A DNA stretch of 35,209 bases, taken from positions 1 through 35,209 of the forward strand of contig BLLX01000014.1 of the NCBI GenBank assembly GCA_011959405.1, written 5' to 3'. The notes beneath the pieces were generated by a model that was not told where the DNA came from, searched no databases, and worked only from the letters and a program-made list of their open reading frames with translations. Source of the stretch: Muribaculaceae bacterium. GTDB lineage: Bacteria; Bacteroidota; Bacteroidia; Bacteroidales; Muribaculaceae. Of this stretch, positions 3,095 through 34,836 are shown piece after piece. Numbering within the stretch: position 1 is the first letter of the stretch; every line of letters begins with the position of its first letter. Made by a program: the position numbers and the translations under genes.

Positions 3095-3934
3095 TTATTC
3101 AGCAACCTCTGCCACTTCCTCAGGAGCGGCGGTTGCAACGGGCTCACCAGCAGGAGCTGCTGCAGGGCGGGCCACACGACGGCGTTCGCGGCGGGGAGCG
3201 GCAGCTTCTGCCTCTGCTTCAGCAGCATTGCTGTCGGCTTTTTCCACCTTGCGCTCTTCAAGACCTTCGTTCATGGCTGCGACAACAGTATCGAGCACGA
3301 GTTCGATGGACTTTGATGCGTCATCGTTTGCAGGAATTACGAAATCAACGTCAGAGGGATCGGAGTTGGTGTCAACCATTGCAAATACGGGGATACCGAG
3401 ACGTACGGCTTCAGCCACTGCGATATGTTCCTTATGAACGTCTACGACAAACAGAGCGGAAGGCAGACGGCTCATGTCGGCGATAGAACCGAGGTTCTTC
3501 TCCAGTTTCGCACGCTGACGGGTGATCTGAAGCTTCTCACGCTTTGACAGATTGTCAAAAGTACCGTCTTTAGTCATTTTGTCGATAGAAGCCATCTTCT
3601 TCACAGCCTTGCGGATGGTGGGGAAGTTGGTGAGCATACCGCCGGGCCAGCGTTCAACGACAAAAGGCATATTCACAGCAGTGGCCTTGTCGGCGATAAC
3701 CTGCTTGGCCTGCTTCTTGGTAGCGACAAAAAGAACTTTCTTGCCAGCTTTTGCTATGCTCTTGAGAGCTGCGGCAGCTTCCTCAAGCTTGGCCTGAGTT
3801 TTGTAAAGGTCAATGATATGAATGCCGTTACGCTCCATGAAGATATAAGGAGCCATAGCGGGATTCCATTTACGCTTGAGGTGGCCGAAGTGGCAACCAG
3901 CTTCGAGAAGTTGTTCGAATGAGGGTGTTGACAT
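3095..3934 (-). CDS. rpsB: 30S ribosomal protein S2
   Basis: Ribosomal protein uS2 of the small subunit. Family signatures are visible at the N-terminus (FEQLLEAGCHFGHLKRKWNP, then MAPYIFMERNGIHIIDL) and further on as FVATKKQAKQV, RWPGGMLTNF and PALFVVDVHKE. The 279-residue length exceeds the bacterial core of about 240 because of an alanine- and glutamate-rich C-terminal tail (from about residue 230, AEAEAEAAAPRRERRR onward), common in Bacteroidetes S2. It lies between rpsI and tsf. The 111-bp gap upstream carries a branched RNA fold that may control it. Confidence 0.97.
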   Translation of the reverse strand: MSTPSFEQLLEAGCHFGHLKRKWNPAMAPYIFMERNGIHIIDLYKTQAKLEEAAAALKSIAKAGKKVLFVATKKQAKQVIADKATAVNMPFVVERWPGGMLTNFPTIRKAVKKMASIDKMTKDGTFDNLSKREKLQITRQRAKLEKNLGSIADMSRLPSALFVVDVHKEHIAVAEAVRLGIPVFAMVDTNSDPSDVDFVIPANDDASKSIELVLDTVVAAMNEGLEERKVEKADSNAAEAEAEAAAPRRERRRVARPAAAPAGEPVATAAPEEVAEVAE

Positions 3935-5840: not shown

Positions 5841-6875
5841 GACAGATCGTTGAAAATTCGGCAGGTTGGACATTTGGGGTGATAACAGAGCGGTAGTCAA
5901 TCGGTGTTGGGCGTCCTAATAGTGTCTTTTGAGATATTCATCTATGAGTTTATTTCTGTTTTCCTTGCTGATCCCCCGATGAACCCGAACCTTGGTTTTC
6001 AAATCAGAGAATACGCCCTCAATGGCATTGTTGGTATTTGGAAGCCCTGTTTCAGGATGGTCATAGAAGGTCCAAAGCAGTGGCATGTTTCGTTTTATGC
6101 TCAGATATGCACTACGTAGTTTCGGCCGCACGTATGGAGGTATGATGCGCTTGATTCTTTTATCGTGAACACGTTCATTGACAACATCCCTGTATTTCTC
6201 ATACCATTCATTGAAAGCCCCGCAAAAACTCTCCTTATCTGTTTTTGCGATGATGTTTACCAGGTTCAGCAGCTCCCGCGATGTCTCTATGTCCGGATTT
6301 TGAGTCACATACCTGCGAACAATTAATATCTGGTGGAACTGACACATCTGTACAGGTATCGGTTTCAATGCCTGTGGCAGTCACTTCATGCCGTCAATCA
6401 CAATGCCGTATATCCGGAACCCGTTGCTCTTCAACCATTCGATTCCCTCCACATATTGGGCAACTGTTTCATGACGTACATACTTGTGCCATAAGAAACT
6501 CCCCGGAGAGCATCCTTGATAACCATAAGACCAAAGTTCCTGCCCCAATATGTGGTATCCATCTGTACGGTTACATCCTTGTGCTTTGCGATCTTATGGA
6601 TATACCGCATACCTTCCAGATCCCTGCGTATGGTCTTTTCGCAGACGCCGTACTTGGACGCAAGCTGTTCCAGCGTCTGTTTGCCCTCTACATAGTCGCT
6701 GATAACCTTAGCTTTATCGCACCTTATTCCGCCATCAAAACGACGGCCGCAGTCCTTGCATTTATATCGTTGAGTACGGCCTCTCAGACCGTTCCTGACC
6801 ACATTTTTAGACCCGCAAAAAAGCATTTTTTAACCATATCAGTAATCCGCTGATCCGATATTTTGACGAATTGTC
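5841..6875 (-). mobile_element. Inactive IS256-like insertion sequence
   Basis: The element is bounded by imperfect terminal inverted repeats: 5841-5861 (starts GACAGATCGTTGAAAATTCGG) and 6855-6875, whose reverse complement starts GACAATTCGTCAAAATATCGG; 15 of 21 positions agree. Inside is one transposase gene broken by a frameshift and a nonsense codon. No convincing target-site duplication flanks the repeats, so the exact ends may be a few bases further out. Its right end lies 8-10 bp from the T-tract of the rRNA operon terminator; its left end abuts a gene fragment. Confidence 0.65.
5916..6826 (-). pseudogene. Transposase of the IS256-like (Mutator-type) element, frameshifted and with a nonsense codon
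   Basis: The N-terminal half (6431-6826) has a zinc ribbon (CGSKNVVRNGLRGRTQRYKC then KDCGRRF), an HTH-like segment (EQLASKYGVCEKTIRRDL) and the first catalytic aspartate in QMDTTYWGRNFG. Near 6466-6472 the frame is lost, compatible with a deletion of GAAA. The other frame continues VAQYVEGIEWLKSNGFRIYG and IVIDGMK, with the second aspartate. A TGA at 6381-6383 then follows, probably from GGA. The C-terminal half (5916-6368) restores the frame with LKPIPVQMCQFHQ and the glutamate region NTNNAIEGVFSDLKTKVRVH. All three acidic residues are recognisable, but the gene cannot be read through. Related ISL3/IS1249-type names are possible for the family. Confidence 0.8.
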
Positions 6876-7052: not shown

Positions 7053-7137
7053 TATCGTAAAAAAGGCAGCAGCATTATGGATCAATATATCTTACACAAA
7101 CAAGCTGTCTGTATATACAGGGGAGGGAAATCCCCCT

Positions 7138-10045
<2,908 letters not shown>

Positions 10046-10175
10046 TATTTCTTGAGATTCTGCTGACTGTAAAAAGCCAGCGCTTCTTTCTGTTGCTCGT
10101 TGTGTCTGTCTCTGATTCAATTATCAGTTACAGTCATATATTGATTCCATAATGTCAATGTGCTCCTTTTTTGTG

Positions 10176-10249
10176 TGGAGAATAACGGATTCGAACCGTT
10201 GACCCCCTGCTTGCAAAGCAGGTGCTCTAGCCAGCTGAGCTAATCCCCC
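10176..10249 (-). tRNA. tRNA-Ala (anticodon TGC)
   Basis: A 74-nt cloverleaf: acceptor GGGGGAT with ATTCTCC, D-arm TAGCTCAGCTGGCTAGAGC, anticodon loop CTTTGCAAG with TGC, T-arm GGTTCGAATCC. CCA is not encoded (the sequence continues ACACAA). It is the only tRNA in the 16S-23S spacer; the tRNA-Ile(GAT) usually paired with it in Bacteroidales operons is absent from both parts of the spacer. Confidence 0.96.
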
Positions 10250-10380
10250 CAATAGACAATAGCGAAGTAGTCCAAAAGAGGTCATCGTGTTGACAATCTC
10301 TTTTCCTTGTCTCTATTATTTCGACCGACCTCTGTAGAGTAAATCCACAAAGATCCGTCTTGCCCTCACTCGGTCTCCAG

Positions 10381-23221: not shown

Positions 23222-23353
23222 GGGTTTAGGGGTTAAGGTTTAGAGTTGATAGTGGATGGTTGATGGTTTGGTGATTAGTATTTGCGATGAGAAACCGGCT
23301 CCATCACCCCTAAACCCTAAACTTTAAACCATCCACTATCAACCCTAAACCTT
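23222..23353. repeat. Inverted repeats built from TTTAGGG-like units
   Basis: Two inverted pairs share this gap. GGGTTTAGGGG (23222-23232) pairs with CCCCTAAACCC (23307-23317). A 27-bp arm at 23235-23261 pairs with 23327-23353, with one mismatch. The second arm runs two bases into the stop codon of the symporter gene. The 20-mer at 23313-23332 recurs exactly at 34792-34811. Confidence 0.75.
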
Positions 23354-24497
23354 ACTCCCGGAAAATCCGGTTGACGATAAGGGCGATAGCGCCGTCGCCG
23401 GTCACGTTGCAGGCGGTGCCGAAAGAGTCCATGGCGATATAGAGGGCTATCATCAGGCCGTTGTCGGCTTCGCTGAAACCGAGCATCGACGAAAGCAGGC
23501 CAAGCGATGCCATGATAGCGCCGCCGGGCACCCCGGGAGCGGCCACAATGGTGATGCCGAGCATGGCTATGAAGCCGGCAAACATAGGCACCGACCATGG
23601 CATGCCCTGCATTATCATCAGAGCCAGCGCGCAGGCCACAATCTTGAGCGTAGAGCCCGACATGTGGATCGTGGCACAAAGCGGTATCACAAATCCGGCC
23701 ACGGCCGGACGCACTCCGGTGGCTTCGCTGCGGCGCAACGTCACCGGGATAGTGGCAGCGGAACTCTGGGTGCCCAGCGCCGTAAAATAAGCCGGCAGCA
23801 TGAGCCGCAGCATTTTCAGCGGATTCTTGCCGGCCACGGCACCCGCCACACAGAACTGTACCACAAGCAAAACCACATGCATCACAAAAATAACCCCTAT
23901 GATGCTGACAAACGTCCTCAGCACAGGTCCCACCTGCCCCGCCATGGTCATCTCCATGAATATACCGAAGATATACAGCGGCAGCAACGGGATGATCACG
24001 GTCATGATCGTGCGCGTGATGATGCCGCGAAACTCCCCGAATCCGCGGCGCAGGGCCACAGACCCGCAGAAAGCCATGCCCAACCCCATCACAAAGGCCA
24101 ACATCAGAGCCGTCATCACTCCGAATAGCGGCGGCATCTCCACCGTAAAATAAGGTTCTGGCGACATTCCGCCGGACGCGGCTACCGTCGCGGCCGACAC
24201 TGATCCGCCGGCTATGAGTTCCGGAAAAATCCACGCTCCGGTAAAGAATGAAAGCAGCCCGGAAGCAAAAGTCATCAGATATGCCAACAGGGCCGTGACG
24301 GCAAGCATCCTGCCGGCGCCACGCCCCACCTCGGCTATGGCCGGCGCCACAAAACCCACTATCAGCAACGGTATAATAAATCCGAGAAACCCGGAAAACA
24401 GCCCGTTGAATGTCGAAAACACGCTCGCCACCCACTCAGGCAGCACAAATCCGGCGCCCACGCCCAGCGCCATAGCTATCGCAATCCGGAGAATCAT
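23352..24497 (-). CDS. Dicarboxylate/amino acid:cation symporter (DAACS/SDF family)
   Basis: A 381-residue inner-membrane transporter that couples uptake of C4-dicarboxylates or acidic amino acids to sodium or protons. Family signatures occur in order: FLGFIIPLLIVGFVAPAIAE near residue 38, the first hairpin loop GTQSSAATIPVTL near 245, the helix MSGSTLKIVACAL, the second hairpin APGVPGGAIMASLG, and the C-terminal AMDSFGTACNVTGDGAIAL. The usual NMDT motif is replaced by the closely related MSGST, so substrate may differ from glutamate. The upstream side is the GTTAGGA repeat cluster, without a visible promoter box; the downstream side is the inverted repeat. Confidence 0.92.
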   Translation of the reverse strand: MILRIAIAMALGVGAGFVLPEWVASVFSTFNGLFSGFLGFIIPLLIVGFVAPAIAEVGRGAGRMLAVTALLAYLMTFASGLLSFFTGAWIFPELIAGGSVSAATVAASGGMSPEPYFTVEMPPLFGVMTALMLAFVMGLGMAFCGSVALRRGFGEFRGIITRTIMTVIIPLLPLYIFGIFMEMTMAGQVGPVLRTFVSIIGVIFVMHVVLLVVQFCVAGAVAGKNPLKMLRLMLPAYFTALGTQSSAATIPVTLRRSEATGVRPAVAGFVIPLCATIHMSGSTLKIVACALALMIMQGMPWSVPMFAGFIAMLGITIVAAPGVPGGAIMASLGLLSSMLGFSEADNGLMIALYIAMDSFGTACNVTGDGAIALIVNRIFRE

Positions 24498-24506
24498 TTC
24501 AGTTAG

Positions 24507-24562
24507 GAGTTAGGAATTAGGAGTTAGGAGTCGGGAGTTAGGAATTAGGAGTTAGGAGTCGG
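24507..24562. repeat. Perfect 28-bp tandem duplication (GTTAGGA-type repeat)
   Basis: The 28-bp unit starting GAGTTAGGAATTAGGAGTTA occurs at 24507-24534 and again at 24535-24562 without a mismatch, followed by a partial third unit (GAGTTAAG). The unit itself is made of shorter TTAGGA words. It forms the left boundary of the four-helix-bundle gene and supplies its last eight or so codons. Confidence 0.9.
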
Positions 24563-24921
24563 GAGTTAAGTTTTTCACGAAGAGTTTTTGTGATGGACGA
24601 CAGCATTTTATGCAATTCTATGGCATCGGCGTGTAATGAATCAAACTGATCACGGGATATGTACTCTCCCTCCTTTAAAAGTTCAAGCCAATATATTGTC
24701 TCTCCACACTCTTTAAATGAGATATAGGCTTTGTTCAAAAAATCCTTCTCACTACATCCACACATTGCTTCAGCAATATTCGCTCCGATACTCGTGCCGG
24801 ATCTGACTATCTGACGTGAAAGAATATACTCTTTCATATCTTCATTAAGATAGCGGCCAAGTTTCACGATCCTCACCGCAAACGACTTAGCCTTACTATA
24901 AACCACGCTCTCCCGTCTCAC
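24538..24921 (-). CDS. Four-helix-bundle protein (23S rRNA intervening-sequence / S23 family)
   Basis: A 127-residue all-helical protein with the family signature: SRQIVRSGTSIGANIAEAMC near residues 35-54 and SFKECGETIYWLELLKEGEY near 68-87. The family was first found inside intervening sequences of split 23S rRNA genes and is related to the bAvd accessory protein of diversity-generating retroelements; its usual role is unknown. The start is GTG at 24921. The last residues, SRLLTPNS, are encoded by the flanking tandem repeat, so the native C-terminus may have been lost or replaced. It lies between sufB and the symporter gene, and no rRNA or reverse transcriptase is nearby. Confidence 0.88.
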   Translation of the reverse strand: MRRESVVYSKAKSFAVRIVKLGRYLNEDMKEYILSRQIVRSGTSIGANIAEAMCGCSEKDFLNKAYISFKECGETIYWLELLKEGEYISRDQFDSLHADAIELHKMLSSITKTLREKLNSRLLTPNS

Positions 24922-24941
24922 AGCCCCACTCCTAACTCCAG

Positions 24942-24957
24942 ACTCCTAATTCCTAAC
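24942..24957. repeat. Right inverted copy of the GTTAGGA-type repeat
   Basis: ACTCCTAATTCCTAAC is the exact reverse complement of GTTAGGAATTAGGAGT, present at 24509-24524 and 24537-24552 on the other side of the four-helix-bundle gene. Adjacent ACTCCTAACTCC extends the similarity. It ends about 10 bp before the sufB stop codon. Confidence 0.85.
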
Positions 24958-24966
24958 TAATTAAGC

Positions 24967-26424
24967 CTATCCCACCGAGCCTTCGAGGGTGATCTGGAGC
25001 AGGCGCTGGGCTTCTACGGCAAATTCCATGGGGAGTTTGTTCATCACCTCCTTGGCATAGCCGTTGACTATCAGCCCCACGGCTTCCTCAGTGGGAATGC
25101 CGCGCTGGTTGCAGTAAAAGAGTTGTTCGGCCGAGATTTTAGATGTAGTGGCTTCATGCTCGACGATGGCGGTGCGGTTTTTCACGTCGATCACCGGGAA
25201 GGTATGGGCGCCGCACGTCGGCGAGAGAAGCAGCGAGTCACATTGGGTGTGGTTGCGGCATCCCTCGGCATTTGGAGCCACCGACACCAGTCCGCGGTAG
25301 GAATTCTGGCTGAAACCGGCCGAGATGCCCTTGCTGACTATGGTCGAGCGCGTGTTGGAGCCGAGATGTATCATCTTGGTGCCGGTGTCGGCCTGCTGCC
25401 GGTTGCGGGTCACGGCCACCGAGTAGAATTCGCCCACCGAGCCGTCGCCCTTGAGCACGCAGCTTGGATATTTCCACGTGATCGCCGATCCGGTCTCCAC
25501 CTGTGTCCACGAGATCTTGCTGTGGTCGCCGCGGCAGAGTCCGCGCTTGGTCACGAAGTTGTAGACACCGCCACGACCCTCGCGGTCGCCGGCATACCAG
25601 TTCTGCACTGTGGAATACTTCACTTCGGCACGCTCCTCGGCTATGATCTCCACAATAGCGGCGTGCAGCTGGTTTTCATCGCGCATGGGCGCGGTGCAGC
25701 CCTCGAGATAGCTCACATAGGCGTCGTCGTCGGCCACGATGAGCGTGCGCTCAAACTGCCCGGTGCCGACGGCGTTGATGCGGAAATAAGTGCTCAGCTC
25801 CATGGGGCAGCGCACACCCTTGGGTATATAGACAAACGATCCGTCGGAAAACACGGCCGAGTTCAGCGCCGCATAGAAATTGTCGGCATAGCCCACCACC
25901 TTGCCCAGATATTTCCTTACAAGATCGGGATAGTCCCTCACCGCTTCCGAAAACGAGCAGAACACTATGCCGAGCTGTGCCAGCTTCTCCTTGTGGGTGG
26001 TCTTGACCGACACCGAGTCCATCACGGCGTCCACAGCCATGCCGCTGAGCATCTGCTGCTCGGCAAGGGGAATGCCCAGACGGTTGAACGTGTCGAGCAC
26101 TTCGGGATCGACCTCGTCCAGACTCTTCGGACCCTCCTTCTTGCGCGGCGCCGCATAGTAGCTTATGGCCTGAAAGTCGATCTCAGGCACCTCGAGATGA
26201 GCCCATGTCGGCGGCGTCAGCGTGAGCCAGTGGCGGAAAGCCTTCAGCCGGAAGTCAAGCAGCCACTGCGGCTCACCTTTCTTGGCCGAGATCAGTCTCA
26301 CCACATCCTCGCTGAGACCAGCCGGAATTATATCTGTGTCGATGGCCGAATGGAAGCCATACTTATAGTCGTCGGCACCATCGGTTATTTCATTGAGTAT
26401 ATCGTCGTTGTCGTATTGTTCCAT
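24967..26424 (-). CDS. sufB: Fe-S cluster assembly scaffold SufB
   Basis: The 485-residue SufB subunit, which with SufC and SufD builds Fe-S clusters in the cytoplasm. Characteristic stretches are [20 protein letters not shown], the beta-helix core [40 protein letters not shown], and the C-terminal [20 protein letters not shown] with its conserved histidine and glutamate residues. The length is normal. sufC and sufD are expected next on this strand, but the stop is followed at once by the repeat-bounded four-helix-bundle cassette and a symporter gene, so they must lie elsewhere. The upstream neighbour is cvpA, 22 bp away. Confidence 0.97.
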
Positions 26425-33561: not shown

Positions 33562-34793
33562 CATCCATGCCTACCGCAATACCGGAACTCATCCTCATAA
33601 ATATCACCGGGCCCGACAGGCCCGGCGTGACCTCGGCTCTGACCGAGATCCTCGGACGCCACAAGGCTACCATACTCGACATTGGCCAGAGCACCATCCA
33701 CCACTACCTGTCGCTCGGTTTTCTCATCAAGACCGACGCGGCGGCAAGCGGCGAAATCCTGAAAGAACTGCTGTTCAAGGCTTCGGACCTGAACCTCAAC
33801 ATCCGGTTCACCCCCACCACCGTGGACGACTACGAGGAATGGGTGGCAATGCAGGGCAAAAGCCGCTGGATCATCACCCTGCTCGGACGCAGACTCAACG
33901 CAGGCCACATAGCCGACGTGACACGCGAGGTCTCGGCCCAGGGACTCAACATCGAGAACATCAAGCGCCTGACCGGACGCGTACCCGTCAACTCCGAACC
34001 TTCTCCCCTTAGCAAAACCTGCATAGAGATGGCCGTGCGCGGCAATCCGGCCGACCGCAACGAACTTCAGCGCCGCTTTCTGGAAATATCGTCAGCTCAG
34101 GAGGTTGACATATCCTTTCAGGAAGACAACATATTCCGCAGATCAAGGCGCCTGATCTGCTTCGACATGGACTCGACTCTCATCGAGACCGAAGTGATCG
34201 ACGAACTGGCCGTCAGAGCCGGAGTGGGCGATCAGGTCAAAGCCATAACCGACAGGGCCATGCGCGGAGAAATAGACTTCTGCGAAAGTTTCCGCGAACG
34301 GGTGGCTCTGCTCAAAGGACTCGACGTGAGCGTCATGCAGGACATTGCCGAACACCTCCCCATCACCGAAGGGCTCGAGCGGATGATGACCGTGCTCAAA
34401 CGCGCCGGCTACAAGACCGCAATCCTTTCCGGCGGATTCACATATTTCGGCAACTACCTCAAGCAGAAATACGGTTTCGACTATGTCTATGCCAACGATC
34501 TCGAAGTGCAGGACGGCAGACTCACCGGACGTCACCTCGGCGACATCGTGGACGGACGGCGCAAGGCCGAACTCCTGCGGCTGCTCGCACAGGTGGAAAA
34601 CGTGGACATAGCCCAGACCATAGCGGTGGGCGACGGAGCCAACGACCTGCCCATGCTCGCCACAGCCGGTCTCGGCATAGCCTTCCACGCCAAGCCCAAA
34701 GTCAAGCAGACGGCCGAACAGAGCCTGTCTACCATAGGACTCGACGGCGTGCTCTACTTCCTCGGCTTCAAAGACTCCTTCATGGAACAATAA
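33558..34793 (+). CDS. serB: Phosphoserine phosphatase with two ACT domains
   Basis: SerB hydrolyses O-phosphoserine, the last step of serine synthesis. The 411-residue protein starts at the ATG that overlaps the kinase stop. Two ACT-type domains come first (about 9-85, LILINITGPDRPGVTSALTE, and 100-185). The HAD phosphatase domain follows: nucleophile Asp203 and Asp205 in CFDMDSTLIETEVIDELA, ILSGGFTYFGNYL as motif II, the RKAEL lysine, and GDGANDLPML as motif IV. The N-terminal ACT pair is normal for Bacteroidetes SerB and suggests serine feedback. The kinase coupling is a chance or metabolic link; I cannot tell which. Confidence 0.95.
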   Translation: MTSMPTAIPELILINITGPDRPGVTSALTEILGRHKATILDIGQSTIHHYLSLGFLIKTDAAASGEILKELLFKASDLNLNIRFTPTTVDDYEEWVAMQGKSRWIITLLGRRLNAGHIADVTREVSAQGLNIENIKRLTGRVPVNSEPSPLSKTCIEMAVRGNPADRNELQRRFLEISSAQEVDISFQEDNIFRRSRRLICFDMDSTLIETEVIDELAVRAGVGDQVKAITDRAMRGEIDFCESFRERVALLKGLDVSVMQDIAEHLPITEGLERMMTVLKRAGYKTAILSGGFTYFGNYLKQKYGFDYVYANDLEVQDGRLTGRHLGDIVDGRRKAELLRLLAQVENVDIAQTIAVGDGANDLPMLATAGLGIAFHAKPKVKQTAEQSLSTIGLDGVLYFLGFKDSFMEQ

Positions 34794-34836
34794 CCCTAAA
34801 CTTTAAACCATAAACTATAACCCATAAACTCCAAAA
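34792..34836. repeat. CCCTAAA-type repeat copy between serB and mscL
   Basis: The first 20 bases (AACCCTAAACTTTAAACCAT) are identical to 23313-23332, 11 kb away in a different intergenic gap. The rest (TAAACTATAACCCATAAACT) is built from similar words. The serB stop lies within the copy. Confidence 0.7.

Follow-up and report, generated by a model that had tools for sequence, protein, structure and literature searches.

An S23-family gene between inverted heptamer arrays as a candidate minimal mobile cassette

Introduction

Why should a gene of the S23 or intervening-sequence protein (IVP) family, whose relatives lie in the 23S intervening sequences (IVSs) of Leptospira and Coxiella, stand between two ordinary protein genes and be bracketed by short tandem repeats? 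The question is raised by a locus in a 35,209-nucleotide stretch of DNA from a Muribaculaceae bacterium (contig BLLX01000014.1 of assembly GCA_011959405.1; hereafter the window), in which such a gene separates sufB from a gene of the sodium:dicarboxylate symporter family. Here we report evidence that this locus probably represents a minimal mobile cassette, consisting of one S23/IVP four-helix-bundle gene bounded by inverted tandem arrays with a unit of 7 bp (in some loci 8 bp), with the encoded protein acting on its own heptamer arms.

Heptamers have been seen near such genes before. In the Coxiella 23S IVS, tandem heptamers (GACAGAT) lie upstream of the S23 open reading frame (ORF) and differ in copy number between strains, and the inverted termini are cleaved by RNase III (PMC4990558). 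Separately, heptamer repeats without a proposed source have been described in Beggiatoaceae (TAACTGA), cyanobacteria and Bacteroidetes (PMC4679880), and GGGNATC heptamer repeats in Xanthomonas and Nostoc, with 70-75 convergent inverted pairs per Xanthomonas genome (PMC4692102). Like the window arrays, the families of cyanobacterial short tandemly repeated repetitive sequences (STRR), TAACTGA and GGGNATC are tandem 7-bp units that are intergenic, dispersed and often located at gene ends between aligned ORFs. Unlike the window cassette, they were described as repeats alone, and the two latter studies (PMC4679880; PMC4692102) draw no link to S23/IVP genes. We found no full text linking S23/IVP genes with heptamer arrays in a search that left most subscription papers and all preprints outside, and priority is unproven.

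Results

Inverted arrays of a 7-bp unit flank the window gene

The product of the window gene scored 100.6 bits on PF05635 (cut-off 33.8) and 110.7 bits on TIGR02436 (cut-off 24), which confirmed the family membership proposed by a first-pass annotation of this DNA; its closest solved structure was 2rld (113.8 bits). The same annotation had described a perfect 28-bp tandem repeat on one side of the gene and an exact 16-bp inverted copy on the other. Analysis with Tandem Repeats Finder (TRF) recovered the 28-mer at 24506-24568 (2.2 copies, 100% match), but revealed that it is made of four heptamers and that the basic unit is 7 bp, (G/A)TTAGGA with variants (period 7 with 9.7 copies at 24501-24568, and period 7 in the opposite array at 24928-24958). 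Likewise, an exact inverted copy of (A)GTTAGGAATTAGGAGT is located at 24942-24958, but the inverted arms as a whole are imperfect copies of 31-46 bp that are 86% complementary. The C-terminal residues NSRLLTPNS are read from inside the 3′ array, as had been noted, and the 23S gene of the window (7136-10045) is unbroken and matches the whole model with 2730 bits, in agreement with the earlier description of an intergenic cassette beside an intact 23S gene.

To score the arms, we took the local similarity between the 5′ flank of a gene and the reverse complement of its 3′ flank. The window locus scored 22.5, whereas sham windows had a median of 8.5 and a 99th percentile of 13.5, and in the window genome the unit pattern had 28 forward and reverse matches, against 0 for the pattern read backwards. 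Since the score lies beyond the sham 99th percentile and the reversed pattern is absent from the genome, the arms are not due to chance.

Congeneric species carry an empty site

In seven congeneric genomes (L157, L158, L159, L162, L163, L164 and L169), which represent congeneric species and not strains, sufB overlaps or abuts the symporter gene, and neither an IVP gene nor a heptamer array was found at this site in any of them; the first-pass annotation had suggested looking for just such empty sites. The overlap reads GGATGAAA (an ATGA overlap) in the four congeners with a verified junction, and the window junction reads GGA-TAG-GCTTAATTAG-[arrays, gene, arrays]-CTAAC-TGAA-ATG. Because the seven congeners have neither component, the gene and its arrays appear to have been gained together, about 465 bp as one piece, or at least no relative retains one alone.

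Comparable situations were found elsewhere. Two Nostoc plasmids (L191 and L192) carry a cassette that is 88% identical at unrelated sites, and the identity drops to background inside the left and the right arrays, so that the homology extends from array to array only. Both arms of the L191 cassette (1501-1872) hold the same additional stretch of about 30 nt, CGCAATGGACTAACGTCCCGCTCCGCTAACGC, indicating that the two arms change in concert. About 20 relatives are empty at the L129 site, and at the L127 site one relative (L202) has more repeat copies and another (L203) only decayed remnants. Cassettes occupy stop/start junctions within operons; on plasmids they were located between hsdS and hsdR (L185), cas2 and cas1 (L195), csx2 and cas1 (L196), and helicase and methylase genes (L193 and L197). 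The sites are mostly not conserved between species, and the single-gene cassette recurs beside unrelated genes. It appears to insert as one piece at the ends of genes, and the gene upstream of it nearly always points in the same direction. In a separate observation, a 2.2-kb segment with apparent prophage genes and an S23/IVP gene is 96-99% identical across three genera (L065, L066 and L067).

Inverted arms are widespread in the IVP family

The arm score was applied to 60 regions, each no longer than 19 kb, that surround other members from the same taxonomic family and to ten congeneric loci. The family searches were run over whole genomes, and sampling favoured loci with the highest profile scores. 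The threshold (the sham 99th percentile, 13.5) was derived from the same regions to which it was first applied, and was then fixed for three further sets. The results showed that 60 of the 67 related IVP genes exceeded it (median 24.5, versus 8.5 for sham windows drawn from these regions), whereas only 1.7% of 471 control genes from the same regions did; the median fell to 9.5 when flanks were compared in direct orientation and to 9.0 when they were exchanged between loci, with 4% of the latter comparisons above the threshold. All 14 plasmid-borne IVP genes, from Bacillota, Cyanobacteriota, Bacteroidota, Spirochaetota and Chloroflexota, passed, as did 15 of 30 genes in a phylum-wide draw (2% cross-locus) and 16 of the 19 nearest relatives of the window protein. 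By eye, the same inverted-array layout was recognised in metagenome-assembled genomes of Clostridia and Verrucomicrobia, and altogether the architecture was found in at least six bacterial phyla. The idea that repeats flank other members on both sides was thus borne out in these sets, except that the repeat is usually not GTTAGGA and each locus has its own unit. The unit had period 7 in 67 of the 75 loci where one could be called and period 8 in the other 8, and its inward strand is C-poor (8%).

An accidental association of gene and arrays was ruled out by the sham, control-gene and cross-locus tests. According to the first-pass annotation, the association would be accidental if the repeats occurred widely without the gene and close relatives had no empty sites; gene-less arrays are indeed common, but empty sites exist and the statistics exclude pure accident.

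The family itself is abundant in Bacteroidota: 153 of 198 phylum-wide genomes have it, with as many as 16 copies per genome. Many genomes of the taxonomic family also contain a second group of larger proteins (frames of 180-270 aa), which match part of TIGR02436 weakly, at about 30 bits. Downstream of the S23/IVP gene at L064, a 31-bp heptamer array occurs three times with 51 bp spacing (3606-3738).

The repeat unit follows the protein

About 60 distinct consensus units were called, and the two arms of one locus match each other. We compared 120 loci, with protein identities taken from BLASTP, an earlier MAFFT matrix having seemed to under-align distant pairs. Among pairs located at different sites, the unit was shared by 67% of those with at least 65% protein identity, by 31% at 60-65% and by 3-4% under 45%. 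The nearest neighbour at another site shared the unit in 33% of cases, versus 5% after shuffling (0 of 2000 shuffles).

In a fresh test, a search of 397 genomes for the proteins closest to that of the window yielded 19 loci at 13 sites, 51-64% identical. The unit was similar to that of the window in 16 of these 19, versus about 5% for shuffled pairs. At such protein identities synonymous sites are near or beyond saturation, and an unselected 7-mer array should therefore be unrecognisable. On this comparison, either the protein and its unit would have been kept together as a pair, or the array would have been regenerated to a protein-specific pattern.

Gene-less arrays and their relation to resident IVP genes

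The window genome contains five further TTAGGAR places. In a survey of 118 genomes, other TTAGGAR arrays were present in 4 of 4 genomes with an IVP of that unit versus 15 of 114 without (p=5e-4), and other AATTAGT arrays in 3 of 3 versus 6 of 115 (p=3e-4). Some of the sampled gene-less loci were single arrays, and others were inverted pairs separated by spacers of at most about 240 bp. Among 20 such loci, IVP remnants gave one clear case (L270, a truncated gene coding for a 47-residue fragment) and none in the others; most gene-less arrays are therefore not shown to be deletion derivatives.

Two gene-less loci lie in the window itself. An inverted pair of heptamer-like arrays with a different unit (GGTTTAGGGGTTAAGGTTTAGAGTTGATAGTGGATGGTT and roughly its reverse complement) occupies 23224-23350, in the interval that separates the symporter gene from its next neighbour and about 1 kb away from the cassette. 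A lone array, AACCATAAACTATA, with period 7/14 at 34792-34830 directly follows the stop of a gene ending at 34793.

Arrays without a gene, both single and inverted, exist, some of them in genomes that lack an IVP altogether. This would suit a scheme in which heptamer arrays arise and spread alone, by slippage or template switching, and in which inverted arrays already in place merely receive or shelter an IVP gene; gene-free heptamer repeats in Xanthomonas, Nostoc and Beggiatoaceae (PMC4692102; PMC4679880) point the same way. However, the empty sites carry no arrays, and a pre-existing array at the window site is ruled out by the seven congeners. Moreover, insertion into a single array predicts direct and not inverted arms, and the unit is predicted by protein lineage across 13 sites and across phyla. 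We consider this scheme quite improbable.

Selection, orientation and RNA folding

Eleven orthologue pairs with unsaturated synonymous sites gave dN/dS values of 0.05-0.20, indicating purifying selection and hence that the IVP protein is used. In orientation, 67 of 73 IVP genes were co-directional with their upstream neighbour, versus 68% of control genes (p=2e-6).

The predicted RNA of the window cassette folds arm to arm (56 pairs, -160 kcal/mol). Together with the co-directional bias, this folding could mean that the element works at the RNA level, the arms giving the transcript a long stem, which RNase III would trim from polycistronic mRNA as in the 23S IVS, with mobility being incidental; the Coxiella IVS, with its RNase III-cut termini and heptamers beside the S23 ORF, offers a precedent (PMC4990558). 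Selection on such a stem predicts an excess of G-U-compatible changes, but the reverse was found: the arm mismatches comprised 126 compatible and 178 incompatible transitions. G-U pairing thus lends no support to selection on a sense-RNA stem, and since the mismatches do not favour such pairs, no RNA role is claimed here. An RNA-level element also leaves the link between unit and protein lineage and the dispersed single arrays unexplained, and on balance this explanation appears unlikely.

The position of cassettes at stop/start junctions inside operons and the strong purifying selection would also fit a regulatory module useful to the host, with the arms as terminators or translation-coupling elements and the gene as a domesticated regulator. 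A stop codon is present on the inward strand in 73% of units, versus 64% of shuffled units, but this excess is small, too slight for stop codons to be accepted as the purpose of the unit. In addition, a module of this kind is hard to reconcile with sites mostly unconserved between species and a cassette recurring beside unrelated genes, and we give it very little credence.

Models of PADLOC gave no family match to the window IVP up to E=1, and PHROG gave no phage family match; on these results, the reading as a defence or phage gene was rejected.

Features of the window locus

The features of the cassette and its neighbours are listed in Table 1. Elsewhere in the window, two minus-strand ORFs (131 and 150 aa) at 5916-6826, beside the rRNA operon, resemble the halves of a broken zinc-ribbon/helix-turn-helix transposase. 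The 16S-23S spacer (10046-10380) contains tRNA-Ala(TGC) only, and tRNA-Ile was not found there.

Table 1. Coordinates of the cassette and adjacent genes in the window
Feature	Position	Strand	Basis
S23/IVP-family four-helix-bundle gene, 127 aa, GTG start	24538..24921	-	PF05635 7.3e-29; TIGR02436 4e-32
5′ arm (gene sense), tandem heptamers GTTAGGA/ATTAGGA/GTCTGGA, between sufB stop and gene start	24924..24958	-	TRF; inverted-repeat match
3′ arm, ~9.7 heptamers GTTAGGA/ATTAGGA/GTCGGGA, inverted relative to 5′ arm, overlapping gene 3′ end	24501..24570	+	TRF
Entire inserted cassette (array-gene-array), ~465 bp	24502..24966	.	Empty sites in congeners; limits +/- few bp
sufB, co-directional upstream neighbour, stop codon TAG at cassette junction	24967..26424	-	TIGR01980 1.9e-189
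Sodium:dicarboxylate symporter-family gene, co-directional downstream neighbour	23352..24497	-	PF00375 3.1e-84

Discussion

We regard as established the matching inverted arms at each locus, the clean empty sites, the cassette-limited homology at two sites, the purifying selection, the link between protein lineage and unit, and the dispersed gene-less arrays. The arm surveys and empty sites support the proposal of a small mobile or repeat-propagated unit outside rRNA, and extend it beyond the scope first suggested. As for the mechanism, the IVP, which by homology would be oligomeric, Avd-like and nucleic-acid-associated, may recognise the heptamer arms of its own cassette, most probably when they are folded as a hairpin. 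With the help of a polymerase or nuclease that comes from the host or acts in trans, the protein could promote the copying or insertion of the cassette and of gene-less arrays.

Several observations weigh against a mobile cassette of this kind. No nuclease, transposase or reverse transcriptase was found within the cassette, and by eye the window junction (GGA/TGAAA) has no target-site duplication of 4 bp or more; lacking both transposase and target duplication, the element does not qualify as an insertion sequence or a miniature inverted-repeat transposable element (MITE). Seven of the 67 related genes and 15 of the 30 phylum-wide genes fell below the strict threshold, although in several of them both flanks show degenerate units. 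Gene-less arrays in many cases occur singly and not as inverted pairs, and three genomes (G023, G034 and G074) have many TTAGGAR arrays and no detectable IVP gene, so that arrays need not depend strictly on a resident gene.

Among known systems, the 23S IVS shares with the window cassette the protein family and an ORF enclosed by terminal inverted repeats that can pair into a stem. In contrast to the IVS, the window cassette leaves the 23S gene intact, lies between protein genes and has arms that are long heptamer arrays with locus-specific units. The 23S rRNA IVS might be a special case in which a cassette landed in an rRNA helix.

Repetitive extragenic palindromic (REP) sequences and the REP-associated tyrosine transposases (RAYTs) offer another comparison. 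RAYTs are Y1/HUH tyrosine transposases recognising REP hairpins; the repeat type follows the protein type, and the repeat is also dispersed without the gene. As in the window, inverted copies of a short repeat flank the gene, and further copies of that repeat are scattered through the same genome. REPIN/RAYT is the closest working analogy (PMC3116915). IVPs may thus relate to their arrays as RAYT proteins do to REP sequences, although the window protein is an unrelated four-helix bundle in which only PF05635 matches and no Y1/HUH transposase was recognised, and its repeat is a tandem 7-mer array. Foldback elements and MITEs have terminal inverted repeats and gene-less derivatives, and the arms of foldback elements consist of short tandem repeats. 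The window cassette differs from them in having no transposase, no visible target duplication and a locus-specific unit. A related four-helix-bundle fold is found in Avd, an accessory protein of diversity-generating retroelements (PMC10053308). Unlike in Avd systems, no reverse transcriptase, template repeat or variable repeat was recognised near the window IVP gene; its neighbours are sufB and the symporter gene, and the window ORF list, which was not fully profile-scanned, contained no recognised reverse transcriptase. The S23/IVP family has also been listed among CRISPR-linked candidates (PMC10910872), and the cassettes between cas2/cas1, csx2/cas1 and hsdS/hsdR may be the source of that listing.

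More broadly, S23/IVP genes and heptamer arrays could constitute a distinct, phylum-crossing class of mobile elements, in which the protein reads a protein-specific 7-bp code and spreads both cassettes and gene-less arrays, with the heptamers of cyanobacteria, Beggiatoaceae, Xanthomonas and Bacteroidota deriving from it and the 23S IVS being one landing site; for this wider proposition we find the case evenly balanced. The heptamer TCAGTTA, the complement of TAACTGA, is present in the arms of one IVP locus (L095). The link offers the common S23/IVP proteins of Bacteroidota and the separately reported heptamer arrays a partner for each other, and it makes the simple prediction that each IVP should recognise its own heptamer. 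S23 genes inside CRISPR-Cas or restriction operons (L185, L195 and L196) may be insertions and not parts of those systems. If confirmed, the cassettes would form a very small mobile-element class, in which a single gene of 120 codons is combined with repeats, and would supply natural pairs of a protein and its 7-mer; this class may explain the long-puzzling heptamer repeats of bacterial genomes.
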